A stretch of DNA of 64,000 nucleotides, taken from the NCBI GenBank assembly GCA_026413255.1, contig JAOCZO010000033.1, positions 31,801 to 95,800 of the forward strand, given 5' to 3'. The notes under the pieces were generated by a model that saw nothing but the letters and a program-made list of their open reading frames with translations, searched no databases and was not told the DNA's origin. Source of the DNA: Fereydounia khargensis. Taxonomy: Eukaryota; Basidiomycota; Ustilaginomycetes; Urocystidales; Fereydouniaceae. Positions within the stretch are counted from its first letter, which is position 1; each line of letters begins with the position of its first letter. The translations under genes were made by a program, and so were the position numbers. This document shows, one piece after another, positions 29,832 through 49,553 of this stretch.

Positions 29832-30496
29832 GCTCACTCGCTCAGCTCAGACTCGCAATCCGCACTTGACTCTCATCGGCATCACTTGTCCACTTCAATC
29901 GGCATCACCATCCAGTCTTTCCTCCACAGACCCACTCATCCGCTCGAAGAAGCCATTCGGCTGCCGTCGAGGTCCTTGCCTTCCCTCAGCATCATTGATG
30001 TCTGGCAGCTCCTTCGACTACGACACCCTGCAGTGAGATTAGACAATCCTGTCATCGTCTCATCTTCCTGAGAACAGGCACGACCTCTTTCACTCTCAGC
30101 CCACAACTTTGACCCACACTGTCTCAGGTGAGTAGCAGATAAAAACCAGAACATTGGCCCAATTAGCGTACGGCCGCAGCAGGCTGACGATTGTTGTATG
30201 ATTGTCTTTCTTCCCTCCTTTTCGCATGACCGCGCGTGATGCGCAGCAATCTGTTCCGTCTGGCTTCATCAACGTGGCAAACCGCGCGACAGTCACGCTC
30301 ATGTTCTAATCGAGAATCTGGTCGGCCCCCAAAAGTCTCACTCCCTTGTTTTGATCAACGTCAAGCGCGGACCATCCGAAAGAGCCAACAGACACTTGTC
30401 GCAGACTTTCGCCTGCTTCTGCCTTGGCTCCCATACCCACAACCCTCACAAGCGCCTCCAACTTAGGCGGCGGGAGGTCAGTGTCTGTCGGTGGAA

Positions 30497-33400
30497 ATGT
30501 CCCTATCATTGTCCCCAGCACCTGTCTGTCACTCCGGCTCTTCCACCCCACGAAACTCGCCGCATCGCCACGTATCCCTAGGAACACCCTCATCCGCGAT
30601 ACCCTTTCCTCGCTCGCTCGGCGTCTCAGCAGATCCACGACGGAAGAGCCAAAGCCCGCGCCTGCTCAGGACATACCATTCACCCTCCTCCCAGCTGGAC
30701 GGTGACTCGCCTGGGCCGTCCTCGTTCACCCTGTCGCCCTCACCATCCGCCTCTCCTGCTAAGGAGGCGCGTGCTCGCAAGCAGGCCCGAGAAGCCGCCG
30801 CCGCTAGTCGCAGCAGTAGGCAAGCTTCCACGAGCCGATTGCGACAAGCGTCCCCCAACGATGCCTGGACACGCAGTAGGGCATCGGGGCATCAACATCG
30901 TCTGGACAGCAGCGGAAGTGACGACGTCTACGACGATCCCTCAACATTTGCTCTCGATCAGACCGACCTGTCCCCTGCTGCACCAACTACCACGGCTTCG
31001 GTCCGCACACCGCATTCGCCTACCACCGAAGCAATCGAGGCTCATCGCAGGATGATTGAGATGGTGCAGTCTGATCCGCGCAACACGCCCGCGCACCCCA
31101 TGGCTGCGCATGGCCTGGAGAGACACTTTGCCACGTATGTTAGCATGACGCCTCCCGCCAGCTTCGGGTCGCGAACCTCGAACGAAACCCCCTTCGCGTG
31201 GTCTGGCCAACAGGCTGCACCACCAGCCACTGAATTTCGCCAGGCTACCAACAACCGCGGGACCATCCCTCGTTCCCGTGCTTTTGGCCATCTTGCGCCG
31301 TTGACCCAGATCAAGGATCTCGAAACCGACTCTACGGACGAAGACGAGTCCTCGCATCAAGATACTGATCCAGCCGTTCTTGGCGAGTCCTCCTCCTCAG
31401 GGATTAGGAGGACTTTTGGCCTCCACTCTGTTACAAATCACGGTCTAGGCATTTCTGCCTCGGATGAGCACGGACAGTGGCCTGGGTCAACGTTGTCAGA
31501 CGGTACTGATGGCGACGTACTTGGTAGCAGGACTCGCTCTCGCCGCCAGAGCGTGGTTGAAGGTCTCGATGCTCCTTCAATCGCTAAGCGACGTGGCAAG
31601 ATGCCTGCCTTCCTCAACTCACGCTCGTCTGACGCCCTTGCTGATGAGATGGACGTCGACTCGGACACTGATGCAGATGTTCCCCCGCCACCATCACCCT
31701 CACCGATGGGAGATGGATCACTATCTGCCGAGCTTTCCAGGGGTTCACTGCATCAAGAGCAGCCATTTGGAGCGCTTCAGCCCGGTCTCGTGGCACGATC
31801 CACAAGACGTGCAGGTGGCACCCGCAGTATATCTGCTGGAGGTACGGACCCAAACGCTGGTTTGATTGATGCTCAGGCTGGGTTGCCACTCGCGTCTTTT
31901 GCGACGCCGGACCGAGTGTCTGTCAGGGCACAGTCCCGTGGACGAGCATTGTCATCCGCGAGCGCCCAAAGGCCACTCGTGGAATTCCTTACCCCTCGCA
32001 GCACCAGCTCCTCCGCGATCACAGACGAGAGGCTCGCGGGGAGCGCGACTTTGTTCGGATTTGCGAGCCAGCCAAGGCCAGTCACCCGTCCAATTCAGAA
32101 TGACACCACGCCAGAGACGACAAGGGAGTCAAAGCGACGATCAACGGGCTCGTCTCTTGCGTCCTTTTCTGCTGGCAAACTTTTCGAGAACGAGATTGCA
32201 GCAGCTCGCAGCGGCACAAGCCACTCCAAGTCACAGACTTTCAACGGACAGGACGACAGCCCGGCTCTCTGCACCCCCGCTCCCTCTCGCATTTCTCGCA
32301 GAGTCACCCCGGGCTCGTCGCATTTCGGAGACATGTCACGCAGCCTCTCGGACACTGGTCCCGACTCTCCTGCATACCACTTTGGTGCCGATGACAGTGG
32401 TGTGGCGTTCGGAGATGACGACGGCAAGTCGTCTCATCTGGGGCACAAGGACGCCCCGCCCTTGGCTTCACAGCTTGGGCTTCGCAAAGCAGCAGTTGCT
32501 TCGATGTCCCACATGGCGTTAGGGCATTCGCGAAAGTCCTTCTCAGCTGACAGCCTTTCTTCACCATCGAAAGCTGCCTCCATCACCTCCACTCCGCCGA
32601 GGCGAGAGGTGAGCTTCAATGGCAACACACCAGCGTCGCGGCCCCCAATCGCTCTGCATAATCCATTTGGTCCAAAGGAGAGGTCTGCGCTTGCGAACGA
32701 GACTCGATGGTCTGACGCCAGTTCAGCTGCCTCGTCACCCGAGCGCAGCCGAAAGGCATTCGCCAGTCCAGCTCGCAAGCCAAGCGGAATGCAAGGCCTC
32801 AATGCGAGCGAAGGAAGCAGCTACCTCACTCCTCAAAACTTCAAGAGTGTCAAGCCGCTCCAGGCAGCTTTCATGTCGACTGGTCTCGTCAGCAAAAGGA
32901 CGCGTACCCGCGGTGGCAGTTTTGATGCCGGTAGCAACGGCAACAGCACATCAATCTCAAGCACTTCCGACGAGCTACCTGTGCCTCCACGACCCAACTT
33001 TGGAAGTGCTCTTGGTCTACGAGAAGTGGTAGCAGCTGCAACTGCGCACGCTGTCGCTCACCCGGAGAAAGGCCACGCCATGCCCGATACACCTGTCAAG
33101 AAGGGCACGCCAGCAATGATGCCTTTTCCTGTCGCCGCTGGACCGCCTTCTTCGTTGAGGCCGCCATCCCAAGCCTCACGCCGCGCACCTTCGCCACTGG
33201 GCATGTATTCACCGGCTCAGGACTCGGTCTCAAGCGGTGGCAGCATCGAGTCACCTTTGCTACCCGGTGACTGCGACAGTCCGACGCTCAATCTCATGTC
33301 GCTCAGCCCTCCTTCTGCCCGGGATGCTTGCCATGCCACCAACGCCCACGGCTGGCCAGCCTTTAGCACTCTGCCGCGTAGCCGAAGGTCTCCGATGTCT

Positions 33401-35716
33401 ATTGCTCAGGCATTTCAACCATTTGCCTCTGGCGATGCAGACGAAGACGATGCGGTCGCTCCGGCCAGCCCCAGCATCCAGCCAAGCCAGTCGCCCCCTC
33501 CGACCACCTTGAGGCGAGGCAAGCTCCGGTCGCGCATGTCGGCACAGGCGCTTGGCCGCAAAGCTGCTCCGCCGAGTCTACCTACCTCTGACTCTATGCG
33601 GATGAGGTCGGCATCTCAAGCAGACGTGCAGGTTCATACCCCTGTGAGCACCGCTGCCGCTGCCTTGAACAAGACTGAAGCCAAAATCGGACACAAGCGT
33701 GGCCAATTGAGCGAAGTGGATCACACGAGCCGTCAACGACCTCCCTATCCCCGAAACCGAGGTTCAATCGGGCTTCAACGCAAGAACTCTTCCGCCAACG
33801 TTGTGGACAGTGGCGGCAGACCTCTACCCGTCCCGATGACGCCCACGCGGAATGCCGCACAGATCAAGTGGTTTGAAGGTAAGTTGGCCCTCTGCGCTCG
33901 TTGTCTCCCCATCGATTGTAGTTCCGAAACTGATCCCTCATTCGCATCCTTCTCTCCCTGGCTGCCAACAATTCCTGCAGCTGCCCAAGTGGTCACCACT
34001 CCATCTCCATCTTCAAGGCGACAGGCAGCACAGCAACTTCGAGCACAGCGCCGTGAGCTGCTGCAGTCCAAACGCACGTCACAGCTTTCCGACGTATCTC
34101 ACATTCACGACACACCTGTGAAGGCGTCGCTTCCGCCTGCAAAGCCAGGCCTCAGCATGGATCGCTTCAACCAGGCAAATGTGTCGATCAACGCTGGCAA
34201 GGTCGGTAGCCGACTCGAAACGTGCTTCACCATTGATTCTGTCATCGGCACTGGCGAGTTTAGTGAGGTGGTGAAAGCGGAGGACAAGGCGAGCGGTTGC
34301 GCATATGCGGTGAAGAGGATGAAGAAGGCCTACACGGGACCCAAGGACCGGCTCCGGCGTCTGGAGGAGGTGGACGTTCTTCGACACTTGGCGATCGACG
34401 GTCAGGCACACCCCAACATTGTCGGACTGGTTGATGCATGGGAAGAGGAAGGCCACCTGTTTGTCCAGCTCGAGCTTTGCCCGCTGGGAACGCTGGCCTT
34501 TTTCTTAGAGGAATACGGACGCCAGGTGGGAGCCCTAGACGAGCCAAGACTGTGGAAGATCCTTGCCGAGCTCTCCTCTGGGCTAGCGCATATTCACGGC
34601 AGCGGCATACTTCATCTCGACCTCAAGCCCGCCAACGTGTTTATCACCGAGTATGGCACGCTCAAGATAGGTGACTTTGGGATGGCGACTCGATGGCCCC
34701 CGCCGGATGCCTACACAATTCTGAACGGTGCTGCGATCGAGGCAACAGACCTCGCCTCAGCGCCAGGGCCATCAAGTGGGTCCAAGTCGACCCGCCCAGG
34801 CTTACAGCGCTCGTGGAGCCTTGAGAGGGAAGGAGACAGGGAGTACCTTGCTCCCGAGGTGATGCTGGCTGGCCGATATGGAAAGCCAGCTGACATTTTC
34901 AGCCTTGGTCTGATCCTTCTCGAAGCTGCGGGCAATGTGGAGCTGCCGGACAATGGCGAGCCCTGGCAGAAGCTGCGGAACGACGACTTTTCGGACGTGG
35001 ACCTTAGCTTCCTCTCTGGAAGCATGCTTAGGATGCTGGAAAGCCTGCTCTCCTCAGATGCGTCAAAGCGCCCAACGGTCGAGGAGATTGTCGAGCACCC
35101 AGTGATGTCGGTGGTTCGGTCACGAATGGCACGAGGCCTGCTGGCGAGCGAGCTAGACCAGCTTCCGGACCTGAACCTACCGAGCTCGGCATCGGGGCTG
35201 ACAGCAAGTGCATCGGGAAGTTCAGCATACAGCACAGCGTCAGATCGCACGGCCGGAAGGAGCGACAGGGACGACGAGGCGGATGATGGGATGAGGAGCG
35301 AGGGGGCAGAGTCGAGCAAAAGCAGTGCTTGGGGCTCTGCGCTCGGCCTGTCTGGGATCCCTACGTCGATTTCTGGATGCACGGCTTCGACGTCGAGCTC
35401 GATGAGCTCGCAGCTGGCACTCAAGGTGCGGGGAGCGCTGATTCAGGAGGCAGAGGAGGAGTTCATTCAAGCGGTGACAGATGCGGATCCGTTGGAGAGA
35501 CAGCTGCGCGAAGAGCCTAGCGTCTGTTCGTCGTCATTCTCGTCGCACTCGCGCTCGTCGTCATTCACATGCGGATCGCCATCGCCACTACCATTAGGAA
35601 GTCTGGCGTTGGAGGGACGAGAGGCTCTTAAAGAGGTGCAATCGCAAGGAGCAGGAAGGGAGGATGCTGACGCGGACGCGGATGCAGATGCAGATGCGAT
35701 GGATATCGACGGCTAA
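30497..35716 (+). CDS. WEE1: Wee1 mitotic inhibitor kinase
   Basis: Wee1 phosphorylates the inhibitory Tyr of Cdc2/Cdk1 and so delays mitosis. I read two exons: 30497-33878 and 33981-35716, giving about 1705 residues. The 102-nt segment between them has GTAAGT and CTGCAG ends, is a multiple of three and has no stop, so an unspliced product of 1739 residues is also possible. Residues 1-1200 are disordered and rich in SP/TP sites (e.g. STPRNSPHR), as expected for Cdk and Nim1-type control. The kinase domain is at about 1206-1510: IGTGEFSEVVKAED, YAVKRMKK, the Wee1-specific HLDLKPANVFIT, KIGDFGMATRWP and REYLAPEVM, with a 30-residue insert in the activation segment. The C-terminus ends in Asp-Ala repeats. 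The frame is open upstream of 30497, but that is the first ATG. Confidence 0.94.
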   Translation: MSLSLSPAPVCHSGSSTPRNSPHRHVSLGTPSSAIPFPRSLGVSADPRRKSQSPRLLRTYHSPSSQLDGDSPGPSSFTLSPSPSASPAKEARARKQAREAAAASRSSRQASTSRLRQASPNDAWTRSRASGHQHRLDSSGSDDVYDDPSTFALDQTDLSPAAPTTTASVRTPHSPTTEAIEAHRRMIEMVQSDPRNTPAHPMAAHGLERHFATYVSMTPPASFGSRTSNETPFAWSGQQAAPPATEFRQATNNRGTIPRSRAFGHLAPLTQIKDLETDSTDEDESSHQDTDPAVLGESSSSGIRRTFGLHSVTNHGLGISASDEHGQWPGSTLSDGTDGDVLGSRTRSRRQSVVEGLDAPSIAKRRGKMPAFLNSRSSDALADEMDVDSDTDADVPPPPSPSPMGDGSLSAELSRGSLHQEQPFGALQPGLVARSTRRAGGTRSISAGGTDPNAGLIDAQAGLPLASFATPDRVSVRAQSRGRALSSASAQRPLVEFLTPRSTSSSAITDERLAGSATLFGFASQPRPVTRPIQNDTTPETTRESKRRSTGSSLASFSAGKLFENEIAAARSGTSHSKSQTFNGQDDSPALCTPAPSRISRRVTPGSSHFGDMSRSLSDTGPDSPAYHFGADDSGVAFGDDDGKSSHLGHKDAPPLASQLGLRKAAVASMSHMALGHSRKSFSADSLSSPSKAASITSTPPRREVSFNGNTPASRPPIALHNPFGPKERSALANETRWSDASSAASSPERSRKAFASPARKPSGMQGLNASEGSSYLTPQNFKSVKPLQAAFMSTGLVSKRTRTRGGSFDAGSNGNSTSISSTSDELPVPPRPNFGSALGLREVVAAATAHAVAHPEKGHAMPDTPVKKGTPAMMPFPVAAGPPSSLRPPSQASRRAPSPLGMYSPAQDSVSSGGSIESPLLPGDCDSPTLNLMSLSPPSARDACHATNAHGWPAFSTLPRSRRSPMSIAQAFQPFASGDADEDDAVAPASPSIQPSQSPPPTTLRRGKLRSRMSAQALGRKAAPPSLPTSDSMRMRSASQADVQVHTPVSTAAAALNKTEAKIGHKRGQLSEVDHTSRQRPPYPRNRGSIGLQRKNSSANVVDSGGRPLPVPMTPTRNAAQIKWFEGKLALCARCLPIDCSSETDPSFASFSPWLPTIPAAAQVVTTPSPSSRRQAAQQLRAQRRELLQSKRTSQLSDVSHIHDTPVKASLPPAKPGLSMDRFNQANVSINAGKVGSRLETCFTIDSVIGTGEFSEVVKAEDKASGCAYAVKRMKKAYTGPKDRLRRLEEVDVLRHLAIDGQAHPNIVGLVDAWEEEGHLFVQLELCPLGTLAFFLEEYGRQVGALDEPRLWKILAELSSGLAHIHGSGILHLDLKPANVFITEYGTLKIGDFGMATRWPPPDAYTILNGAAIEATDLASAPGPSSGSKSTRPGLQRSWSLEREGDREYLAPEVMLAGRYGKPADIFSLGLILLEAAGNVELPDNGEPWQKLRNDDFSDVDLSFLSGSMLRMLESLLSSDASKRPTVEEIVEHPVMSVVRSRMARGLLASELDQLPDLNLPSSASGLTASASGSSAYSTASDRTAGRSDRDDEADDGMRSEGAESSKSSAWGSALGLSGIPTSISGCTASTSSSMSSQLALKVRGALIQEAEEEFIQAVTDADPLERQLREEPSVCSSSFSSHSRSSSFTCGSPSPLPLGSLALEGREALKEVQSQGAGREDADADADADADAMDIDG

Positions 35717-37005
35717 AGCACGGGAGAGATGGAAGGGAGGAAAAGTGGAAGAAGAGCAGCGGTATAGTAACGGTGGGCAGGACCCGCGAGCATGAACGAG
35801 TCTAAGCAGTCAAGCCTGCAACACACGTACAATAGTCAATACCATTGAATGGGTGCAAATCAAATGATACACACTCTCACTTTGCACTCGCACGATACAG
35901 CACGCGGTGCATTTGGAACCCATCTTACTCGAGTTAGAGTAGGAGCAGAAGCGCAAAGCACCATGAGAATACCACCAACTACAGTACTATCATTGTCAGA
36001 ATCAGCGGCGCCCATGTGGTGGTAGGAGTGCCAGTGTGTATGGGAATCATTGTACTGTGCTGCACCCTGTTGGAAATGTATGCGACCCACTTGACCCACT
36101 TGATCCCGTGTCCGAGGGATGTGATGGGAGATGTGCAGCATCACCTCGCAGGATTCTGTGCCGTATGCACTGCAATGCACAATTGAACGTCCTCCTCGCC
36201 GAGCGGCAGCTCAGGACGCGTCTCGGCCAAGCATGTCAGGAAGGGTGAAAGGGAAGGAAGGGTGCGCGACTCGACCTCGGTCCAGTCACCTCCTTTCAGC
36301 AGCTGCTGCTACTTCGGCATGGCAAGGCAAGTCTTTGATCATAGACCTTGTTTTGGCATGGCTAGCCGGCTTACTGGGGTCTGACAGCTGCCTCCCTATT
36401 TTGCTGACCTGAGTCTGTTCCGGGGCTGGCTTGGACCGGGAGTCCGGTGGCCCATCATACTCCGCCTCCCGCAGCCTTGCCATGGCAGGGCGAGTCAAGG
36501 CGAGTCAAGCCAAGTCAAGTCAAGGCATACACTGCACCTTTTCTCCTCAGAACATGTGAGGCCGAGTGGCTGGCACCCATGGACCCGCTCTACAGTAGAG
36601 TACAGTATCTCTATCCTTCACATGTTCCAGCCCCCTTGGCTATCACTTTAGCCCACGTCACGGCTAACCAAAACCACATTTACTGTACCTTCGGTATCTC
36701 CTCCATACTCTCCGCATCTCCGCTATACCACCAGCTTTAACTCCAGCTCCCCCCTTCTTTCGACTCGTTGTCTTCTTCTTCTTCTTCTTCTTCTTGACAA
36801 AGTCGTTGCATGCAATTCGACCCGTCACGCGAGTAGTGGCGCTGAGGTGGTACTGCCATCCAAGGCTAAGGCTGCCCTCTCTCCGCCTCGTTTACGGTCA
36901 CAGCATAAACACAAACACACACACGAGGTTTTGACTCATCCCTTTCTTTCCTACCACTACCCCTCCTCCAAACACACGCAAAGCAAGCATTATACCCATT
37001 CAGCT
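35717..37005. other. Intergenic: WEE1 3' side and GH26-like gene promoter
   Basis: No gene was recognised in 1.29 kb. It contains TACAGTAC at 35980-35987, TACAGTA at 36591 and 36601, and TACTGTAC at 36681. It also has AGTCAAGGCG/AGTCAAGCCA direct repeats at about 36494-36526 and a (TTC)n tract at 36771-36795. The last 150 bp are C/A-rich, typical of a leader. Confidence 0.5.
36771..36795. repeat. (TTC)n trinucleotide tract
   Basis: About eight TTC units 210 bp upstream of the GH26-like start codon. Confidence 0.85.
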
Positions 37006-38100
37006 ATGGTTCCATTCACCGGTAGCAGCCTCGCGGCACGAGCAGCCAGTAACACGTTGACTTTCAATGGTCTACCCCTCGGCTTTATCCCAGACGTTGG
37101 CTTTGATGGTGGCAACATTCAAACTATGTACGGAATCAACTCGATTCTGTCGGGTGCTGGACGAGCAGCGACATACGGATTCTACGATCAGGTGTACAAA
37201 GGGCAGCAATATACGGGCCAGAACCTTTTGCGCCATGCAAGCGACATTTACGACTCGGGTGCCATCTTTGAGGCGACCATCATGCCGATCGGCGGCTGGG
37301 ACGGTTTCACCCAAAAGGACAACAGTCAGGCGCTTGCCGTTTGTCGAGTGCTAAAGCGACTCACGGATGCCGGCGTTGAAGTTCGTCTGCGTTTTGCACA
37401 CGAGGTCAATTGGTACGTGGAGAATGGCGAGTACGACCGGGGCGACGATGACGGTGTGAGCGGGTTCAAAGAAGCCTTCGGTGTCGTCTCCCAGACATGC
37501 AAGTCGCTCTCGTCTTCCATCAAGATGTGGTATTGCCCCAACGCAGCCGACTTGACCGTGTACGAAAAGTACCTCCCCGACTCGTTCAACTCGACCGTTG
37601 ACATTATCGGTATCGACTTTTACCCAGAGACCGAGGAGGCATCGACGGCCAAAAACTTTATAGAAACGCTCCAGCCGTTCCATGACAAGTACACCTCGGA
37701 CACTACCAAGATGATGATTGCCGAGGCTGGATCACATGTCGTCAATGCTACCATTCAGCAGCGATTGGACTGGTTGACGGTGATCACGTCAGATCAAGTC
37801 CAACAGGCACTTCCCAACCTCGTCAGTGTGACGTGGTACAATGCCCTCCGACTATCTGACCAGCTGTCGTACGGCACCGGATCAGACTTCCGCATCGTTG
37901 ACCCCGGTAATGACCAGTTTGACAACACGGCGCTACTCAATCTCTTCCCTGATCGGAATGCCTCGACCCCCATCACCAAGACGGCTAACCTTCCAGCATC
38001 ACTAAAGGGTCTCAGCAACACGGCTACCCGCACCTCGACCTCTGGTGTCCTGTCGCTTGTGGCTGCGGGCTTGCTCGGCACCCTTGCTTTCATTATTTGA
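37006..38100 (+). CDS. GH26-like glycoside hydrolase, probably GPI-anchored
   Basis: This is probably a wall- or host-glycan hydrolase (the mannanase-type fold is inferred). A single exon encodes 364 residues from ATG 37006. A TIM-barrel pattern is visible. VRLRFAHEVNWYV carries the putative acid/base E133 in the HE-x-N setting of GH26 and clan A enzymes. KMMIAEAGSHV carries the putative nucleophile E240. The C-terminus has a Ser/Thr linker and a hydrophobic tail (VLSLVAAGLLGTLAFII) like a GPI-attachment signal. The N-terminus, MVPFTGSSLAARAAS, is a poor signal peptide for a GPI protein, so a short upstream exon may be missing from this model. The frame upstream of 37006 is open but carries no hydrophobic stretch. 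It is the first of five genes around surface glycans. Confidence 0.7.
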   Translation: MVPFTGSSLAARAASNTLTFNGLPLGFIPDVGFDGGNIQTMYGINSILSGAGRAATYGFYDQVYKGQQYTGQNLLRHASDIYDSGAIFEATIMPIGGWDGFTQKDNSQALAVCRVLKRLTDAGVEVRLRFAHEVNWYVENGEYDRGDDDGVSGFKEAFGVVSQTCKSLSSSIKMWYCPNAADLTVYEKYLPDSFNSTVDIIGIDFYPETEEASTAKNFIETLQPFHDKYTSDTTKMMIAEAGSHVVNATIQQRLDWLTVITSDQVQQALPNLVSVTWYNALRLSDQLSYGTGSDFRIVDPGNDQFDNTALLNLFPDRNASTPITKTANLPASLKGLSNTATRTSTSGVLSLVAAGLLGTLAFII

Positions 38101-38733: not shown

Positions 38734-40605
38734 TTACGCCTTGACAGGCGCAAGGGAAAACTTGGTTTGCAGGTGACCGAGGGTGGGTTTGTGGAGCCGG
38801 TATCCTGACGCCACAGCCTTGCGGACATCGTCGGCCTCGAGGATAGTCTGTTGGTGTACGGGGTCCTTTCCGCAGAAAAGAACAAGTACCGCGCGACCGA
38901 GAAGCTCGGAAGGGATTTCGAGCACGAAGCGGGTGGGGATGGCGAGTGCGAGTGCAATACCGGCTGTGGCGACCCAGATGAGACCGAGCGCGGCAGCGGG
39001 AGTCTTGGCTTCGATCGAGGACTGAGGGAACATGACGGGGATCACCGACCACAGCACGAGCGGGTGAACAGCGACAAGGGCGGCGGCAAAGTGCTGTCCC
39101 AGAAGGGCGATGGGTGCAAAACCAAGCACGGCGCGCAGCGGCATCGAGATGTCAACCACCGCCACGAGCAGAGCTGCACACAGCACGTCGGTGAACTTGA
39201 CCATGGCGTAGACGTTTGCACCGTCCTCGGCCTTGATGACTTGAATGTTGGCAAGGCCGCTGTTGATCGGGTCCCGGACTGCCGATACGAGGAGGAGTAC
39301 CATGGCCACGGCGAGCAGAATGGCTTGCAGAATCACGTTCCAGATCCCACGCACACGAGCAAAGCGGCCGCTCACATGGATCTCAGCTACCAGCAGACCT
39401 AGGATAGCGGGCGCGACGTAAGAGAGCGAGGTCCAGGACAGGAACGCGAGAAGTGCAAGCACGCTGACGCGTGCATCGTATTGAACCAGCGAGACGATGA
39501 GCGTCAGACCGTAGATGTAGAAGCTGTTCTGGAACAGCCAGGGTGTAGCCCACAGCGATCCGGTCTCGAGCTGAAGCGTCTGCGGTGTGTTCTCGACGGT
39601 GAACAGGTTGGTGGCGGTAGAGATCCACTGCGAGGGACTGTAGAAGCACCAGTAGGGTCTACCGCCAACGAGGTTAGCAAATGCCTCGTTTTCCGGGTAG
39701 TTGCTTGTCGCGTTGCAGATGCCGTACTGGATACCTGTGATAACGAGTACGGGAAAGAGGAAACGGAAGGGACGGAAGAGCATAGCAAGGCCGATCGAGC
39801 GGTAGTCGACTGTGTTCTTGGCCGTTTGTGGTACCTCGGGGGAAAGCCTAGACTTGGCGGCTGCGTCGTGCGAGTCGGTGCGACTGAGGAGCCAGTTGAC
39901 ACCGAGGGTCCTTCCGGAAATGGCAAGGAAGAGGATCAGGCCAAAGTTCGAGTTAAATGGGTAGAGCACACTGTTTCCCAAGGTCCACTTGCGCGTCTCG
40001 CTCGCGCACACGGTGGAAGTGAGTACAGCGAGGGCAGCGATGAAACGGAGACCGTCAATGTGTCGGAGGCGACGGTACTGGGGCTTGTCGAGGCTCGGCA
40101 CCTCGTCCTCAAGGGGCGGGAGGTGGTGGTTGACGGGGCTGTCAAACTTTTCCTGAGAATAGTCCTCGTCCTGGTGCGACTTGATGTAGGTGAGCCTCGA
40201 CTTGGGCCTGGGGCTTGTGTCTTCGCTGGTGCTCGTATCGGGCGAGTCGTCGTTGTACGCTGCGTGAGAGTAGGAGGAGGGCCCCGAATTGTATGCGGCC
40301 GTGGAGTGGCGACGAAGGTCAGCATACTGCGCCGTGTACTGAGTACGTTGTGACTGTTGCTGCTGCTGCTGTTGCTGTTCCTGTTGCTGCCAGCCGGTGT
40401 AGTGCTGCGAGTGACGCACGTCTTGAGCGTATCCAGCCTGGGGGACGTAGTCGGTCTCGTGCGGCGCGCCACCCTGTGGGTAGTAGTAGCTCATCTCGTG
40501 CTCGTTGGGCTGGTACTTGCTCCCTCGATTGTCTTGGAGCATGTTTTCCCTCGAAGCCTGGAAGTGGGGCTGCTGCATGATGGGAGAGGAAATGTAGCGA
40601 ACCAT
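38734..40605 (-). CDS. Acyltransferase-3-like multispanning membrane protein
   Basis: A single exon encodes 623 residues. Residues 1-165 are disordered and Gln/Tyr-rich, including a poly-Gln run. The AT3 domain begins with RLRHIDGLRFIAALAVLTS, then GLILFLAISGRTLGVNW, and about ten hydrophobic spans follow to about 590. AT3 proteins move acyl groups onto sugars or lipids, but the motif's conserved His (11 residues after the Arg) is Thr here, so activity is doubtful. The closest relative in the window is the N-terminal half of the fusion gene at 42426. The two genes are divergent, with a disordered Tyr-rich N-terminus and the same DGLR-x-x-AAL start, which suggests an old duplication. The stop TAA sits inside a perfect GTAAGT donor; splicing there to an AG near 38655 would change only a few end residues. 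Confidence 0.8.
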   Translation of the reverse strand: MVRYISSPIMQQPHFQASRENMLQDNRGSKYQPNEHEMSYYYPQGGAPHETDYVPQAGYAQDVRHSQHYTGWQQQEQQQQQQQQSQRTQYTAQYADLRRHSTAAYNSGPSSYSHAAYNDDSPDTSTSEDTSPRPKSRLTYIKSHQDEDYSQEKFDSPVNHHLPPLEDEVPSLDKPQYRRLRHIDGLRFIAALAVLTSTVCASETRKWTLGNSVLYPFNSNFGLILFLAISGRTLGVNWLLSRTDSHDAAAKSRLSPEVPQTAKNTVDYRSIGLAMLFRPFRFLFPVLVITGIQYGICNATSNYPENEAFANLVGGRPYWCFYSPSQWISTATNLFTVENTPQTLQLETGSLWATPWLFQNSFYIYGLTLIVSLVQYDARVSVLALLAFLSWTSLSYVAPAILGLLVAEIHVSGRFARVRGIWNVILQAILLAVAMVLLLVSAVRDPINSGLANIQVIKAEDGANVYAMVKFTDVLCAALLVAVVDISMPLRAVLGFAPIALLGQHFAAALVAVHPLVLWSVIPVMFPQSSIEAKTPAAALGLIWVATAGIALALAIPTRFVLEIPSELLGRAVLVLFCGKDPVHQQTILEADDVRKAVASGYRLHKPTLGHLQTKFSLAPVKA

Positions 40606-41686: not shown

Positions 41687-41726
41687 CATCAGTGCATCAG
41701 TGCATCAGTGCATCAGTGCATCAGTG
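41687..41726. repeat. CATCAGTG 8-bp tandem repeat, 5 copies
   Basis: Five perfect copies of CATCAGTG, about 100 bp after the 7-bp array. Confidence 0.9.
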
Positions 41727-41825
41727 CTTCTCCGGGGCGAGGCCCATCCCAAGCCATGGTCATTGTTGCTGCCATGGCTCCCGCTCCCTTTGACAGCTAG
41801 CTCCTCGCTTCACTTGACCTGCTAT

Positions 41826-41840
41826 CCCTGTCCCTGTCCT

Positions 41841-41875
<35 letters not shown>
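41826..41875. repeat. CCCTGT 6-bp tandem repeat, about 8 copies
   Basis: About eight copies of CCCTGT with one CCTTGT variant, some 550 bp upstream of the fusion gene start. Confidence 0.9.
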
Positions 41876-42425
41876 GAGCTCGAGCCTCCCTAGCCGACCG
41901 ACCCCGAGACGCAGCTCCACCCACCACTAGCCGCATATACCCTACTCTTCTCCCCTGTCAGCCTTGTATGCCTCGTGGCAGTCAGTCCTTGCCCGCGTTC
42001 TTGTAGATCCCTGCATGAATCTACACTGGTCCTTACCATGGCGCCTCCTCCGAGACGGGCCCCTTCCTGTCCTTCTCAGAGCGAGAGACAAAGACAGAGG
42101 TGCTCGCATACACCTCTTGCCCTCCCTTCTCCCGTGTCTTGGCCCAGCTGACTGACCAATCTAGGAGATTCGCTTCGTATCCTGATAGAGTCCCTGCCCT
42201 GCGCTCTCTTCGTCCATTGAGCCTGGTGGTCGAGCCTAGATAGCTACAGTAGATCCTGCCAGCTGGCTCCTTGACCACCGTGCTCTTCTCTTCTACTTTT
42301 ACCACCACCACCATCTCTTTGGCCACTCGTCTTTGCACTCTATCCTGTTTTATCTTCCCCCTTTTGTCCTCAAGCAGAGCCACAACAAGCAGAAAAGTGC
42401 ACAAGTACGGCGGTGGCTACTCACC

Positions 42426-45400
42426 ATGAATCCCTCTGGCGGTCCACACCAGCCGCATGGCTACTACGATGCATCAGGCGGCCACGGCCACTTTTACCCT
42501 CGTGGCGATGCCTATCTCGATGTGCCTCATTCCCCATATACCCCGGATACCCCTACCTACGTTGACTCTAACGGTCCTGGCACTCCAAGAGACTACAACT
42601 TCCCAGAGCCCGATGGCATCTCTCCCGCTGGTCCAATCGACTACCACAAGGCATACATCCAGAATGCGAAAAAGCATCAGTCCCTATATGCTCCACCTGA
42701 AAAAGTCTCCCCTGAGCCCACTCCTCTGCCCTCAGAGACCTCGATGACCGCCTTGGTCCCCAACTCTGTTGTCGCTCACAAGGTTCAGCGCCTCGACTAT
42801 GCTGATGGACTTCGCGGTCTGGCTGCGCTAATGATCTTCAACATCAACTTTATGGACAATACCTTCCGCACATCCCATCCTGATGTTGTCAATCCCGAGA
42901 CCGCTCCAGGTATTCTTCGAAGTCCCATGGGTCTCCCGCTCCTCTTCATGATTTCTGGTCGAGTTAATGTCACCCCCTGGTTCCGCTTCAAGGCTGCCGG
43001 TCACGCTATCGAATGGGCCGCACTGCCCGATGCAATCATTCGACGTACTCTCCGTCTGCTCATCGTTGCGAGCTCCTGGGAGGTCATTCAGAAGATCGAG
43101 TGCGGTGCTGGTGCTTTCAAGCGTACCTACGAGGCTGAGCTCTTCCTCCAGACTGGTGTGCTCAAATACCCACAATGGTGCCGCCTCGATGACTCGCTCT
43201 TCTCCGAGGACCCCAGCAACTGGAACATCTATACTACCTTCCAGGACATTCTCAGTGGCGTTATCAGGCTTGCAACGAACCGCAACTATGATCAGCAGAG
43301 TGCTGGCAGCGGTCTACTCTGGTCCATGTTCCCACAGGTCTGGGGCATGATCTTTGTCATGATGCTCCTGCCTATCGTCATGTTCATGGATGGCTCTCGC
43401 CGCTTTGCCCTCTACGGCGCTCTCATGGTCGGCATGGGATGGACTTACTCAGGCAATCTGCCCTTCCTCATTGGTATGATGGCAGCCGATCTCTCCTCGT
43501 CTCGCTACCTGAAAAAGTTCCAGACCAAAGCACGCTGGCTCTACATCACCCTTGAGTTTGTCATGGCTGCTTTCCTGACCACGACCATCTGCTACCACCC
43601 CATCATCAGTGCAATCGACAATGCACTTGGTTCCATCACGAACCGCGATGGCAAGCTTGGTTACACCGCATCTGCCCCTTCTACGGGCAGCATGCCAGGA
43701 CCGCTTCTACAGGCTTCTCTTCTGTTCCTTTGGCTTGAGATGAGCCCTGTACTTCAGTGGCTTGTGTCCAACTTTCTCCTCAAGGCTCTCGGACGAAGAG
43801 CGATCGGCTTTTACTGTGCTCAGATGACCATGATCTATGGCTTGATGCCCCACCTCACCCTCCATTTCCGCGACCAAGGCTATACCTTCTTTGACAACAT
43901 GTGGAGCACCTGGGCCCTAACTTTCTTCTCGACGTACGCTGTCGCTTGGCTTACGGGTAAGACGCTTGACCGTGCCGCCATCGCATTCAGCTTGTGGTTC
44001 TCGCAGAAGCTACAGACTCGCTCCTCGTTGGGTATGTTGACCGACGCGGGTTTGGTCGTATTTGACACACTTGCCTACGGTCCTGGCCGCTTTGTCCGAG
44101 CTGTTCCTGGATGGTGTTCTCACAAGTGGGCCCGCACCAAGCACCTGACATGGACCCTCTTCAACTGGCGAGGCTTTGTCCAGCCTCCTCCGTTCCCGAC
44201 TCACCCTGGTGAAGTAGGACTCAAGTTCAAGGATCTCCATTCGACGCTGTTCGATGCCGATATTTCTGATGACGTTCAGGCCGTGCGCACTCGCCGCATC
44301 CTGCGAGTCCTTTCCTTCATGGGTCCCGTTCAAGTCTGCATCATTCTCGGTCTTGGGGCCACCTGGATGTTCTTCAATCCTTGGCACGACTTTGTCCTTG
44401 ATGGATTTGCTGACTTTAGCACTCTTTGGCGTGTACTCTGGGCACTGGCTCTGCCATACTGCATCATCACTACGCTTGGTTTCGCGACTCCGGACATTAC
44501 CCGCACGCCAGAGCAACAGAAGAACCGCAAGGTCGTCCGCGAGCACATCCACCGTCTCTTCATCGTGTCAGTCACGCGTGGTTCAAACCCAGAGACGACA
44601 CGACGTGCCCATTCGCAGCTCAAGCAGCTGGAAAAGTACCACCCTGCTGTGCGGGTTGTGGTTCTGACTGACGAGCCGTACGCCTACCCGGACTTGGACA
44701 ACATTGTGACTCCCAAGAACTACAACTCTGCGACTGGCAAGGCCAAGCACAAGGCCAAGGCGCTCGACTACTTCCGTACCACGATGAACCTCACTCCGTA
44801 CGACTGGATCCTGCACATGGACGAAGAGTCTACCATGGACGCCGAGTCTCTTCGTGGCTGCTTCGACTTTGTCCGATACAATGACGCACACATTGGTCAG
44901 GGTATCATCACGTACAACGGAAAGCGCGAGACGTACTGGAAGAACTGGTTCTTTGCTGTTGCTGACTGCATTCGTGTCGGCGACGAGCTTGCACGATTCT
45001 CGCTACAGACCAACATTATCAAGCGTCCCGTATTCGGTGTCCACGGCTCGTTCCTGTTCATCAATGGAGATGTAGAGAACCAGGTCACTTGGGACTTTGG
45101 CTCGCTGGCCGAGGACTTTGAGTTCTCGCAGGCAGCTTGGGCTAAGGGATACAGCGTGGGCCGCATCCACGGTGTCGTGCGTGAACAGTCGCCCGAAGGC
45201 TGGCAAGACTTTTTGAAGCAGCGCCGTAGATGGTACATGGGTATCCGTGAAATCGATGGACTCTACTTCCTGCCTCAGATCGCGATCAAGCTCTGGACAG
45301 CCGGAATTTTCTGTCTCGTTGCGACGATCATCAATATTCCCTTTTCGCTGCTGCTCGACTCTAGTGGCGCCACTCCGCGATGGCTGTACGTCATCTCGTG

Positions 45401-45617
45401 TTTCTGCTTTGGCAACTTTTACTGGCTCTACTACTCGGGCCTCTTCTTCTCAGAGATCGACTATGGATACGAGTGGAGCGAGATGTGGAAGATTCCCGTG
45501 CACGCTATCGCACTCTTCTTTATCCAGCCCGTCATGTCTTTCTTCGAGGGTTGCGCTGTCATCTTTGCCATGTCCACCGAGGAGGGCGAAGTCGGGTTCC
45601 AGGTCATCAAGAAGTAG
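42426..45617 (+). CDS. Fusion of acyltransferase-3-like domain with egghead-type GT2 glycosyltransferase
   Basis: A single exon encodes 1063 residues from ATG 42426 (TCACCATGA context). Residues 1-120 are disordered. The AT3-like domain (about 120-570) starts RLDYADGLRGLAALMIFN and GLPLLFMISGRVNVTPW and has roughly ten spans; its expected catalytic His is Asn. Two or three further spans (about 620-690) lead to a GT2 domain at about 700-1060. That domain shows FIVSVTRGSNPE, LHMDEESTMD (nucleotide-sugar/metal Asp cluster, about 797), GQGIITYNGKRETYWKNW, SLAEDFEF (catalytic Asp, about 895) and KQRRRWYMG (QxxRW, about 931). C-terminal membrane spans follow. The order of the GT2 motifs matches Drosophila Egghead and nematode BRE-3, which add beta-1,4-mannose to glucosylceramide; substrate here is inferred only. 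A plausible role is synthesis of an acylated glycolipid or wall glycan. Confidence 0.88.
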   Translation: MNPSGGPHQPHGYYDASGGHGHFYPRGDAYLDVPHSPYTPDTPTYVDSNGPGTPRDYNFPEPDGISPAGPIDYHKAYIQNAKKHQSLYAPPEKVSPEPTPLPSETSMTALVPNSVVAHKVQRLDYADGLRGLAALMIFNINFMDNTFRTSHPDVVNPETAPGILRSPMGLPLLFMISGRVNVTPWFRFKAAGHAIEWAALPDAIIRRTLRLLIVASSWEVIQKIECGAGAFKRTYEAELFLQTGVLKYPQWCRLDDSLFSEDPSNWNIYTTFQDILSGVIRLATNRNYDQQSAGSGLLWSMFPQVWGMIFVMMLLPIVMFMDGSRRFALYGALMVGMGWTYSGNLPFLIGMMAADLSSSRYLKKFQTKARWLYITLEFVMAAFLTTTICYHPIISAIDNALGSITNRDGKLGYTASAPSTGSMPGPLLQASLLFLWLEMSPVLQWLVSNFLLKALGRRAIGFYCAQMTMIYGLMPHLTLHFRDQGYTFFDNMWSTWALTFFSTYAVAWLTGKTLDRAAIAFSLWFSQKLQTRSSLGMLTDAGLVVFDTLAYGPGRFVRAVPGWCSHKWARTKHLTWTLFNWRGFVQPPPFPTHPGEVGLKFKDLHSTLFDADISDDVQAVRTRRILRVLSFMGPVQVCIILGLGATWMFFNPWHDFVLDGFADFSTLWRVLWALALPYCIITTLGFATPDITRTPEQQKNRKVVREHIHRLFIVSVTRGSNPETTRRAHSQLKQLEKYHPAVRVVVLTDEPYAYPDLDNIVTPKNYNSATGKAKHKAKALDYFRTTMNLTPYDWILHMDEESTMDAESLRGCFDFVRYNDAHIGQGIITYNGKRETYWKNWFFAVADCIRVGDELARFSLQTNIIKRPVFGVHGSFLFINGDVENQVTWDFGSLAEDFEFSQAAWAKGYSVGRIHGVVREQSPEGWQDFLKQRRRWYMGIREIDGLYFLPQIAIKLWTAGIFCLVATIINIPFSLLLDSSGATPRWLYVISCFCFGNFYWLYYSGLFFSEIDYGYEWSEMWKIPVHAIALFFIQPVMSFFEGCAVIFAMSTEEGEVGFQVIKK

Positions 45618-45760: not shown

Positions 45761-46663
45761 CTAGTCGAGTCTATTAGTGCTCTTCCACTCTCCCCAATTC
45801 TGTCTGACACCCAAGCAGCCCCAAGTAGCTGCGAGGATGATCTCAACAGCGGCAAGAAAGGCGAGCGAGTTGTCAAACTTGCGTACGATAAGTTGGGAGA
45901 GTGCTGCACCAATGAGGAGGGCGAGAATGCCTGCGAGGCGGAGTGCCTGTTTCGTGTTGAGCGGGTTGAGGTCTGCGCTGACGTTAGTCAGAGTGGCTGT
46001 GAACACGACAGTAGTGCTAAGTGGTGAAGGTAGACGGGAGGAGAGGCAGGACTGGATCCCCAGAGAGATAGAGAGCTGGCATGGCGTGCATTGCGTACGT
46101 CAGCAAGGTCCACTTGTCCGCTTTGAATCTGAGGACCAAACGAGATGTACTCACGAGAGCAAGGACGACAGGCGCCCTCTCGCCGTTCAAATTGAAGTCT
46201 GCGTAGGCGATTCCAACTAGTGTTAGTGTGAGCGTGAGGGCAGCACGCAAGATGCTCGATGCGATAAGGGCGGTGCGGCTGGGCTGGAAGCGGGCAGCGA
46301 GGTTGGCACCGATACTAAAGCCGCCGATGGCGCTCAGTGAACAGAGCAACCGACGCATCGTGTCTGGCAGCGAGAAGGCAGCCAGCACCAACTGGACCAG
46401 GTTGCCCGTCATAAAGCCGACCCATGTCTGCGTGGCACTGTACGCCAGACCATCCGCCAGCCCTGTCGTGAGGCACTGCAGGAGGAGCGCAGGTTCCACG
46501 GATGACGGGGTCGTCGAAAGGCTGTTCAGAGACGCATCGAGTGGCCCATGGTCAGTACCTGTGCCATGCTAGAGCAAGGGTGCGTGACTTACTGGTATCG
46601 AAGAAACGATAAGCGTGGCCGCGAGCGGTTCTGACGACCCAGCAGCGGCGCCTGCTCGTCCAT
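45761..46663 (-). CDS. DUF1275 (YoaK-like) membrane protein
   Basis: A small multispanning membrane protein of unknown function. I read three exons on the minus strand: 46663-46593, 46521-46099 and 46016-45761, giving 249 residues, the usual family length. The N-terminus MDEQAPLLG has an acidic dileucine-type sorting motif. Family marks are LTTGLADGLAYSATQTWVGFMTGN, ARFQPSRTALIASS, TTTVVFTATLTNVSADLNP and a final pair of spans. Phases join cleanly with introns of 71 and 82 nt. The piece STSRLVLRFKADKWTLL in exon 2 matches the family poorly. A 26-nt GTGAGT...CTCAG segment there would expose IQSGQVDLADV, which looks more family-like, but it breaks the frame of exon 3. Exon 2's end is therefore uncertain. 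The gene is head to head with the GH92 gene. Confidence 0.72.
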
Positions 46664-47036
46664 GATGCCAAATGGACCCTGGACGCTTTGGTAGGCGAAG
46701 GCGAAGGGTCAATTTTTCTCAAGAGCTGCATTGCGCGGCGAATTGCTCGGCTCGGCATATGCTACAGTACTGTACAGTAGCTTGGAACGCTCGCTGACCC
46801 CCGTTGATGAGGTCAATGTGGAGTCGAGACGACTGCCGCTTTACGCGAAGGGGGATGGTGCATATGAGCACCGCAGCCTCTGCTCCATTCATGCCTCACC
46901 GCGCTGTTCTTTCCCTTCCTGCCCCCACGGCTACATCCTTAGCGAGCGACACACAAGGTGGCTAGTGGCTAGTCTTACCGTCCTGGCCGACGAGAAGGGT
47001 CAATCGCCGCACAGCTCTCTAAGCTCACTGTCAGCC
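46664..47036. promoter_or_regulatory. Shared divergent promoter of DUF1275 and GH92 genes
   Basis: 373 bp separate two outward-facing start codons. Near the DUF1275 side is GCTACAGTACTGTACAGTAGC (46761-46781), whose core TACAGTACTGTA is a perfect palindrome. It is the best copy of the recurrent motif in the window and a candidate regulatory site for the pair. Confidence 0.5.
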
Positions 47037-49553
47037 ATGTCGTCACGTCGCTTGCACCACCATCACCGTCACCACATCATCACGCCTCGGCGACTGGCAA
47101 CCATGTGGCGCAACAGCGTTCCTATCCTTCTCGCGCTCGTGGCCTCGTGTCTAGGACACTCAGCGGTGTCGCAGCACATCTTTATGACTCCCCCCTCATC
47201 CGCATCCGACATCGCCGCTGTACCTCAATGCTATCCCTTCTGTGCCGCTGGCGAGGCACCTCCTGTCTCGCAGGTCGAGGCTGCGCGCTACGCCTCGCTC
47301 GTATCAGAACAACTGGCTCATGTCGATCCCCGCATTGGCACTAACGGACCAGACCCGTCCGAGTACGGCGGCATGGTACCCAGCGTGGCACTTCCCTTTG
47401 CCGCCGTTCGTACCGTGCCCATGACTCGCGAGAACCTCGTCAGTGGCTGCGCCTACCACGACAACGACACGGCCATCATCGGCTGGCTCGCAAGTCGTCA
47501 GCCCGCCATCTGGATGGGCGACTATGGCTTTGCGACTCTCTACACGCTCCCTGACGGTCAGATTGAGACGGACACCGAGAAGCGTGCACTGCCCTTCAAG
47601 CGCGAGAACGAGTTCGTCAGCCCCTACAAGCATACAGTCCGCACCGACGACGGCCTTTTCGCAGAGATGGCGGGAAAGAGCCGCTCGGCCATGTTTCAGT
47701 TTACCTATGAGAACGTCACCCAGTCGCCTGCTGTTGTGGTGCAGGCCACGCGCCCAGAATGGCGTGGTGCTGTCTACGCCAACCCCGAGCGCGGTGAGAT
47801 CACCGGGTACAATCCTGAGCGCATGGACTATCGTCTCGGCCCCAACCAAGCGCTCAATTTTAAGGGGCACTTTGTCTTCCGCTTTGAGCATCAGGCTGCC
47901 AACTCGTCCAAGTGGACTACAAGTCTTCCTGCTAACGGGCTCGGTACGATCCACACCAACGCAACGGGCAAGACCTTGCATCCCGGCGAGCGAGCGCGCT
48001 GGAACGAGCTGGGTGTCTACTCTTACGCCCGCTTCCCTGCCGGCACACACAAGGTGCGCGTCAGGCTCGGCCTGAGTCTCATCAGTGAGGAGCAGGCAAG
48101 GTACAACCTCGAACATGAAATCCCTGATGGGACCACCATGGACGACGTTGTGCACGAACTGATCGACGCCTGGAGTGACAAGGTAGACCGCATTCAGGTT
48201 ACGGGCGGCACTAAGAGCGACAAGCGCATCCTCTACACGGGCATCTTCCACTCGTCCCAGTATCCGGCTGAGCATGCCGAGCCGCTTCCACCGTCCAAAT
48301 CGCGCAGCATGGGATCCAACACGACGGCCGCGTACCACTACTACTCGGGCTACACTGATTCGGTGCACACAAGCCCTACTCAGCGTTATCAGTCGTGGTC
48401 CATCTGGGACGTATTCCGTGCACAGTGGGGCTACCTGATCCTGACCGAACCGGAGCGCATTGTCGACATGGTGCACTCCCTTCTTGATATCTACGACCAA
48501 AGCGGCTACCTACCCATGTGGGCCAATCTTGCCGAGACCAACATCATGATCGGCACGCACGCCGACAGCCTTATCGCAGAGGCAGCAGTCAAGGGTGTGC
48601 GCGGGTTTGACATGGACAAGGCTTGGTCCGCCCTGTACCGCGATGCAACTGTTCCTCCCGAGCGGGAGATTGAGCTGCGATACGAGGATCGCGAGGAATA
48701 TACTCCGCTTGAAGTGCGTGCTGGCCTCAGCGCTTACGACGAGATTGGTTTTGTGCCTCTGGATGGATGGAGCGAATCGAGTAGCCGTACGCTCGACTAC
48801 GCCTACGACGACTATGCCGTGTCAGTCTTTGCCAGACTGCTCAACCGGACTGAGGATGCGGAGCGTTTCCTCGCGAGGAGCAAGAACTACGCCAATGTCT
48901 TTGACCCCGATCAAGGTCTCATGGCCGCGCGGCTGCGAAACGGCACGTTCCTCCGCCAGCAACTCGAGCATCCGCTGGCACGCCAGGACGGCTTCACCGA
49001 AGGTAACCAGTTCGACTGGTCGTTCGATGTCGTGCACGACGTCGACGGGCTAGCCAAGCTGCTCGGCGGACGGGAACGTCTGCTGGCTCTGCTGGACCGT
49101 CACTTCCGCGAGGGTCACAACAACCAGAGCAACGAGCCGTCACACCATATTCCCTTCCTGTACGCACTGCTCGGCCACCCAAGCCGAACGCAGGAACTTG
49201 TCCGCTCGATTGCGCACGAGGCGTTCCACGATGAGCCGGATGGATACGCCGGCAACGAGGACTGCGGACAGCAAAGTGCCTGGTTCACATTTGTCTCTGC
49301 TCTCGGCGTGTACCCCGTTGATCCGCTCAGTGGTCAAGTTGTCGTCGGCGCAGGTCCCTTCTTCGACACCGTGCAGGTATCCTTGCCCAACAAGAAGCCT
49401 CTGCGCATCTCCAAGAAGGGTACCGGTGACTATGTGCGCACAGTCACGGTAGACGGCAAGGCACGAAAGGAGCCCACCATCCCATGGGATAGGATCGGAG
49501 ACAGCGAATGGGTGTTCGAGATGAGCGAGACGCCTGTGGCATGGAACAGCTAG
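47037..49553 (+). CDS. Secreted GH92 alpha-mannosidase
   Basis: This enzyme removes terminal mannose (usually alpha-1,2) from mannoproteins or N-glycans. A single exon encodes 838 residues from ATG 47037. A second ATG at 47103 starts directly before a good signal peptide (MWRNSVPILLALVASCLGHS), so either start sends the protein to the secretory route. GH92 marks run in order: VDPRIGTNGPDPSEYGGMVPS near the N-terminus, SIWDVFRAQ, MIGTHADSLIAEA (the G-x-H region), DGFTEGNQFDWSF (catalytic Glu region) and GYAGNEDCGQQSAWFTF followed by GVYPVDP. Several N-x-S/T sites fit a secreted protein. The length is near the family's 750-850. It is divergent from the DUF1275 gene and convergent with KMO (stops 121 bp apart). 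Confidence 0.94.
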   Translation: MSSRRLHHHHRHHIITPRRLATMWRNSVPILLALVASCLGHSAVSQHIFMTPPSSASDIAAVPQCYPFCAAGEAPPVSQVEAARYASLVSEQLAHVDPRIGTNGPDPSEYGGMVPSVALPFAAVRTVPMTRENLVSGCAYHDNDTAIIGWLASRQPAIWMGDYGFATLYTLPDGQIETDTEKRALPFKRENEFVSPYKHTVRTDDGLFAEMAGKSRSAMFQFTYENVTQSPAVVVQATRPEWRGAVYANPERGEITGYNPERMDYRLGPNQALNFKGHFVFRFEHQAANSSKWTTSLPANGLGTIHTNATGKTLHPGERARWNELGVYSYARFPAGTHKVRVRLGLSLISEEQARYNLEHEIPDGTTMDDVVHELIDAWSDKVDRIQVTGGTKSDKRILYTGIFHSSQYPAEHAEPLPPSKSRSMGSNTTAAYHYYSGYTDSVHTSPTQRYQSWSIWDVFRAQWGYLILTEPERIVDMVHSLLDIYDQSGYLPMWANLAETNIMIGTHADSLIAEAAVKGVRGFDMDKAWSALYRDATVPPEREIELRYEDREEYTPLEVRAGLSAYDEIGFVPLDGWSESSSRTLDYAYDDYAVSVFARLLNRTEDAERFLARSKNYANVFDPDQGLMAARLRNGTFLRQQLEHPLARQDGFTEGNQFDWSFDVVHDVDGLAKLLGGRERLLALLDRHFREGHNNQSNEPSHHIPFLYALLGHPSRTQELVRSIAHEAFHDEPDGYAGNEDCGQQSAWFTFVSALGVYPVDPLSGQVVVGAGPFFDTVQVSLPNKKPLRISKKGTGDYVRTVTVDGKARKEPTIPWDRIGDSEWVFEMSETPVAWNS

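Follow-up and report, generated by a model that had tools for sequence, protein, structure and literature searches.

Can a single fungal membrane protein both add a sugar and acylate it? The question is raised by one gene in a 64,000-nucleotide stretch of the Fereydounia khargensis genome (contig JAOCZO010000033.1, positions 31,801 to 95,800; hereafter "the window"), in which an acyltransferase-3 (AT3) membrane domain and a family 2 glycosyltransferase (GT2) domain are joined in one chain. A first-pass annotation made from the letters alone had reported an uninterrupted frame carrying both, and this is borne out by a stop-free translation of 1063 residues in which each domain passes its Pfam cut-off. 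The AT3-GT2 fusion is real and conserved. We give a probability of roughly 45% to the reading, drawn from sequence and modelled structure, that it works as a membrane-bound glycan synthase carrying its own acyl-transfer module, with a probable second subunit encoded next door ("AT3a"), the sugar and product being putative. The features of the fusion gene are as follows.

42426..45617, + strand: AT3-GT2 fusion gene, 1063 amino acids, intron not needed
42795..43955, + strand: AT3 domain PF01757 ("AT3b"), residues 124-510 (Pfam), with an HGSNAT-like fold in the model
42813..42878, + strand: signature of transmembrane helix 1 (TMH1), R130, N141 and H151 (codons read; alignment counts)
43044..43055, + strand: RxxR motif, R207 and R210 (46/46 and 45/46 aligned proteins)
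44805..45425, + strand: GT2 domain PF13632, residues 794-1000 (Pfam)
44820..44831, + strand: DEES, residues 799-802 (46/46)
45108..45116, + strand: AED, residues 895-897 (E and D 46/46)
45219..45233, + strand: QRRRW, residues 932-936 (45-46/46 per place)

A fused AT3-GT2 gene and its distribution

The ATG of the fusion gene lies in the context CTCACCATGAAT, and a separate record 99% identical to the window protein (P0002 against P0001) has the same start and frame. Matches to PF01757 (E 4.6e-19; 69.1 bits, cut-off 31) and PF13632 (E 5.2e-35; 121.5 bits, cut-off 27) follow a predicted disordered stretch (residues 1-121), and in the model the GT2 module, its helices in the membrane included, occupies approximately residues 617-1063. 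All strings quoted in the first-pass annotation were located, with DGLRGLAAL at residues 127-135 and FMISGR at 174-179 in addition to the three GT2 motifs listed above. Searched against the host genome, an assembly of 10.46 Mb and 40 contigs, the whole protein matched a single place, itself; PF01757 has 2 places there in total, and PF13632 has 12.

The first-pass annotation had also proposed looking for the same domain order in other fungi. Our search of ~5.8 billion proteins (E <= 0.001, with scoring of the best 7995 candidates by shared words) returned at least 58 homologues, for which precomputed Pfam annotation gave both domains in 48, GT2 only in 9 and AT3 only in 1; since 48 of the 58 have both, the pairing is more than chance. 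The named sources of homologues include smuts and allies (Ustilago, Sporisorium, Violaceomyces, Pseudozyma, Thecaphora, Meira), rusts and red yeasts (Puccinia, Melampsora, Phakopsora, Austropuccinia, Rhodotorula, Sporobolomyces, Microbotryum, Mixia, Atractiella, Cystobasidium and others) and chytrids (Powellomyces, Fimicolochytrium, Geranomyces, Thoreauomyces, Quaeritorhiza, Blyttiomyces), plus Paraphysoderma and Calocera, and the fusions span these groups. Lineages were looked up for Quaeritorhiza (Chytridiomycota), Paraphysoderma (Blastocladiomycota), and Testicularia and Calocera (both Basidiomycota), and the group labels of the remaining genera are our assumption. No ascomycete was recognised among the named matches listed, the search being word-based and several matches being without a name.

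As for novelty, the earlier statement that no fungal enzyme of this architecture had been described agrees with the literature searched (no paper on an AT3-GT2 fusion was found in open-access literature, among the matches listed), but the architecture itself is widespread in sequence databases, and Ustilago and Pseudohyphozyma records already bear "egghead" names; one homologue, for example, is recorded as "related to beta 1,4-mannosyltransferase (egghead protein)". Within that literature the fusion is uncharacterised, and each half belongs to a known kind.

A near-invariant GT2 module beside a changed AT3 signature

Residue conservation was read from an alignment of 46 of the 59 proteins P0001-P0059, leaving out 11 shorter than 900 amino acids, P0002 as a near-copy, and P0054, in whose model the AT3 start is missing. 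On the GT2 side, D799, E800, E801, S802, E896 and D897 are each present in all 46 proteins, and Q932, R933, R934, R935 and W936 in 45, 45, 46, 45 and 46. Judged by its profile match, acidic motifs, QxxRW motif and modelled GT-A fold, this module is a GT2 glycosyltransferase. The GT2 part of the predicted structure resembles cellulose and hyaluronan synthases as well as PcManGT (6yv7), a mannosyltransferase that is among the best structural matches but is archaeal and without AT3. TED and QxxRW are the usual motifs of processive synthases. The window protein shares fold and QRRRW with BcsA, CesA and hyaluronan synthases and differs from them in having AED for TED (a motif test for processive synthases was negative), in the three helices that the model shows past the GT domain, and in sequence matches that are short and weak: a GT2 profile (A1) found three cellulose synthases among solved chains (E 0.006-0.007, ~53 residues), and neither P0001 nor a family profile (A2) matched any solved chain. 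A viral structure library gave ESV-1-84 (E 1.5e-08) as its best match.

The first-pass annotation had aligned the GT2 motifs with Egghead/BRE-3. The likeness extends to the GT2 type and to the "egghead" record names, yet the matches from whole-protein and GT2-part searches included no Egghead or BRE-3 sequence, and the motifs do not single out Egghead, because cellulose and hyaluronan synthases are fold matches too; Egghead, moreover, presumably has no AT3 domain, unlike the fusion. Used as a query by itself, the GT2 part brought up 24 proteins, including four (P0069, P0071, P0072, P0074) of 430-467 amino acids and 31-38% identity without AT3. Bacterial and archaeal genomes held 17 loci with GT2 relatives, one in a Xenococcaceae cyanobacterium (86% to P0071), one in a myxobacterium (46%) and the remaining 15 at 25-47%, mostly over shorter stretches, and a viral contig from IMG/VR (L021, 5001-6062) encodes a GT2-domain relative at 32% identity. 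AT3 domains beside these prokaryotic and viral relatives were unconvincing (two AT3 profiles run over the 784 frames at loci L004-L021 reached E 0.012 and 0.049 at best), and the GT2 part had no match in plasmids. This type of GT2 therefore occurs without an AT3 partner too, given the GT2-only relatives and the lack of a convincing AT3 frame nearby.

The AT3 half combines strict conservation with one conspicuous change. D127, R130 and R207 are invariant (46/46) and R210 is present in 45/46, but the signature place eleven past R130, which is His in 42/46, is Asn141 in the window protein (Gln in P0028, Ser in P0029 and Ala in P0051); the position of H151 is His in 39/46. Where PF01757 proteins have Arg-x10-His, the window protein has Arg130-x10-Asn141, with the RxxR of TMH3 retained, and the FxxxxG motif of TMH2 reads L173 F174 ... 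G178, the Phe standing one place closer to the Gly (F174 kept in 43/46, G178 in 46/46). Compared with AT3 O-acyltransferases such as OafB, then, the fusion protein passes the profile and keeps the TMH1 Arg and RxxR, and differs in having Asn for the signature His. Since Arg-x10-His, described as absolutely conserved across AT3 domains in passages of PMC9833829, is absent, we file the domain as a divergent AT3 homologue and not as a canonical AT3 enzyme. The same text describes AT3-SGNH proteins, in which AT3 is joined to an SGNH domain; here the joined domain is GT2.

The changed place has a counterpart in HGSNAT, a transmembrane acetyltransferase of human lysosomes. Parts of PMC12423673 describe an important Asn at the place of the signature His in HGSNAT, and report that GWT1 acylates without the HGSNAT histidine; in passages of PMC11357348, HGSNAT N258 hydrogen-bonds acetyl-CoA and H269 is the catalytic residue. 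The HGSNAT type has Asn in TMH1 and its catalytic His in the luminal loop that comes next. The window protein has an Asn in TMH1 and a His after it (N141 and H151) at a spacing one residue shorter, and the AT3 part of its predicted structure resembles HGSNAT, though its sequence has no detectable match to solved chains and no luminal HGSNAT domain was seen, no search aimed at it having been made. Because HGSNAT has Asn there and H151 is kept here, loss of the His is no proof of a dead AT3 domain, and we dropped that stronger reading; by analogy, the domain may have changed to HGSNAT-type chemistry. A sequencing error at Asn141 is unlikely, because P0002 independently shows the same residue.

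Broadly, AT3 diverges much faster than GT2 in all compared pairs (e.g., 52.6 vs. 84.3% identity between P0001 and P0003). The comparison does not show selection on AT3 to be relaxed in this lineage, as P0001 is barely further from P0005 than P0003 is (AT3 49.1 vs. 54.1%, GT2 71.5 vs. 73.9%). Three Paraphysoderma paralogues differ among themselves at the AT3 His, with His in the second domain of P0012 and in P0017, and Ser in P0029.

The AT3-like neighbour and the surrounding genes

Three further features of the window complete the picture.

38734..40605, - strand: AT3-like neighbour "AT3a", probable partner, 623 amino acids, without the signature His
46731..49553, + strand: GH92 gene (Pfam), given as context only, its link to the fusion not being shown
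36847-38100, + strand: open frame of 417 amino acids with a hydrophobic C-terminal tail, no family match

AT3a lies divergent to the fusion gene and had no match in Pfam, or in NCBIfam, where P0001 and P0012 were also without a match. In BLAST against 11 other sequences, its best partner was the N-terminal AT3 of P0012, a Paraphysoderma protein of the order AT3-AT3-GT2 (E 4e-24), followed by P0017 (5e-16) and the N-terminal AT3 of P0052 (3e-13), a Quaeritorhiza protein of the same three-domain order, with only 0.007 for the AT3 of the adjoining fusion; pairwise BLAST gave 4e-26 for P0012 and 4e-5 for P0001. A profile built from AT3a and its three standalone homologues (one from Testicularia cyperi) scored 110.8 bits on the N-terminal domain of P0012, 62.8 on the best AT3b, 61.7 on the N-terminal domain of P0052 and -2.7 on L002, the genome's other AT3 gene. 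In a tree, six AT3a rows were split from 20 AT3b rows with support of 100/99. Of four reruns, the two that drop P0012_a or P0052_a bear on whether smut-type and fused AT3a join, and the split persisted in both; each of the other two has a single half by itself. On these sequence comparisons, the neighbour groups with the N-terminal AT3 of the AT3-AT3-GT2 proteins, more clearly for P0012 than for P0052. The signature His is absent in 6/6 AT3a rows, which have Thr or Ser instead, with the TMH1 Arg/Lys and RxxR kept in the alignment. The three-domain gene models might be mis-merged neighbours, but this would still mean adjacency in distant phyla, which would equally point to AT3a and AT3b-GT2 belonging together. 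Short tandem repeats occur at 41690-41880 (+), within the 1.8 kb between the two divergent genes.

Elsewhere in the window, the GH92 gene belongs to what we take to be an alpha-mannosidase family, with 2 places in the host genome. The frame at 36847-38100 shows, by eye, motifs that we take to be GH26-like (RFAHEVN, MIAEAGS), unconfirmed by the searches: its best Pfam match was DUF5710 (E 0.33), NCBIfam gave nothing near cut-off and solved chains nothing, PF02156 had no match in the host genome, and the frame had no second genomic copy and none in plasmids; its single-sequence model is unusable (mean predicted local distance difference test score 38.1). As no library supports the GH26 identity, we do not claim a beta-mannan gene cluster of this frame and GH92. 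Other frames include one with WD40 repeats and an M20 peptidase at 55988-59152 (+), presumably Dug2-like, a 1741-amino-acid frame with a protein kinase domain at its C-terminus at 30491-35716 (+), and a short frame with a partial DUF1275 match at 46017-46499 (-), a fragment or exon. Outside the window, a GT21-family place lies in two pieces on contig C5 (C5:70738-71151), as expected for a ceramide glucosyltransferase, so that a glycolipid acceptor is possible; neither this place nor the GH92 neighbour decides the product. A separate synthase-like GT2 frame, L027 (C9:136392-136967), has matches to poly-GlcNAc and cellulose synthase models whose scores fall far short of the cut-offs.

Proposed mechanism, alternatives and significance

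In the mechanism that we propose, the cytosolic GT2 module would add a sugar from a nucleotide donor, a step for which motif and fold argue strongly. What is made, either a polysaccharide or a sugar linked to a lipid (mannose being the best guess), may then cross the membrane by way of the GT2 helices or alongside them, and the AT3 domain may thread cytosolic acyl-CoA and acylate the sugar on the far side. Most relatives would use the usual AT3 histidine for this, and the window protein an HGSNAT-like pair in which Asn141 would hold the acyl-CoA and His151 would be catalytic. From its adjacency here and fusion elsewhere, AT3a would be a non-catalytic partner subunit, its arginine motifs kept and its histidine absent. 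A functional comparison, with no shared descent claimed, is offered by IcaA-IcaC pairs, in which GT2 polymer synthesis by the polymerase IcaA is paired with an AT3 protein, encoded by separate bacterial genes and not as a single fungal chain. A passage of PMC12423673 has IcaC proposed to O-succinylate the polymer.

Several observations weigh against a synthase of this kind. The AT3 signature His is lost in the window species, the spacing of N141-H151 is ten where that of HGSNAT N258-H269 is eleven, and the fold fails to separate polymerases from single-sugar transferases. For the partner subunit, AT3a has matches of similar strength to the two AT3 domains of P0052 (E 6e-15 and 3e-13), just 3 standalone AT3a proteins were found, and an extra AT3 occurs in only 2/46 aligned fusions (P0012, P0052); the trees, too, carry long-branch warnings, with the outgroup L002 very long and placed among the AT3b rows, and an unsettled root.

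The loss of the His could also mean that GT2 does the chemistry and that AT3, at least here, has become a membrane scaffold or an assembly or translocation module. Replacement of the signature His in 4/46 fusions (N, Q, S, A) and by T/S in every AT3a row, and the fast evolution of AT3 in each compared pair, would fit such a retirement, but the His is kept in 42/46 proteins and the arginine motifs in 45-46/46, and the parts of PMC12423673 cited above concern an active HGSNAT with Asn at this place and a GWT1 that acylates without the HGSNAT catalytic His; we consider retirement unlikely, though a serious contender. A glycolipid enzyme whose GT2 adds mannose to glucosylceramide and whose AT3 acylates the glycolipid so formed would suit the "egghead" record names, the GT21-family place and the presence of the non-processive PcManGT among the best structural matches, and passages of PMC6202054 have Egghead turning glucosylceramide (GlcCer) into mannosyl-glucosylceramide (MacCer). 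Against it stand the equally good fold matches of cellulose and hyaluronan synthases and the GT2-only relatives in a cyanobacterium, a myxobacterium and archaea, which point to a broader family, and we hold it to be rather improbable.

That the frame merely merges separate AT3 and GT2 genes would agree with the 9/58 GT2-only and 1/58 AT3-only homologue models, but is very hard to credit when 48/58 models are fused across at least three phyla and the frame is stop-free; some "GT2-only" models even hold AT3 sequence, P0006 starting inside AT3 and P0055 having DGIRG...HH. We retain the membrane glycan synthase with an acyl-transfer module as the best reading, and the coupling of acyl handling to sugar transfer suggested by the first-pass annotation, in which the Asn for the signature His had gone unremarked, is plausible. 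It is tempting to go further and to picture a dedicated early-fungal surface-glycan machine, in which one chain would transfer or polymerise sugar and acylate it across the membrane, together with another AT3 subunit that does no catalysis. Chytrids, Blastocladiomycota, rusts, red yeasts and smuts would have retained the machine, and in this lineage its acyltransferase would have switched from an AT3-type His to an HGSNAT-type Asn/His; as a whole, this extended picture is speculative and on balance doubtful.

New here are the contrast between a near-invariant GT2 and an AT3 with Asn for His, the grouping of the AT3a neighbour, and the structural likenesses of the model. The fusion may also bear on a question in fungal biology: passages of King et al. 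(2017; PMC5653360) state that no ZtGT2-like protein exists in Puccinia graminis or Ustilago maydis, and that another route may serve some fungi. At least two AT3-GT2 proteins (P0044, P0045) occur in P. graminis, and smuts have AT3-GT2 too, which makes the fusion a lead, and a lead only, on the ZtGT2-less route; simple replacement of ZtGT2 is argued against by the other GT2 places of the host genome (12 for PF13632), one of them the synthase-like L027. If true, the proposal would mean that early-diverging fungi and the rust, red-yeast and smut lineages share a conserved synthase-plus-acyltransferase, and with it a new route to acylated surface glycans.
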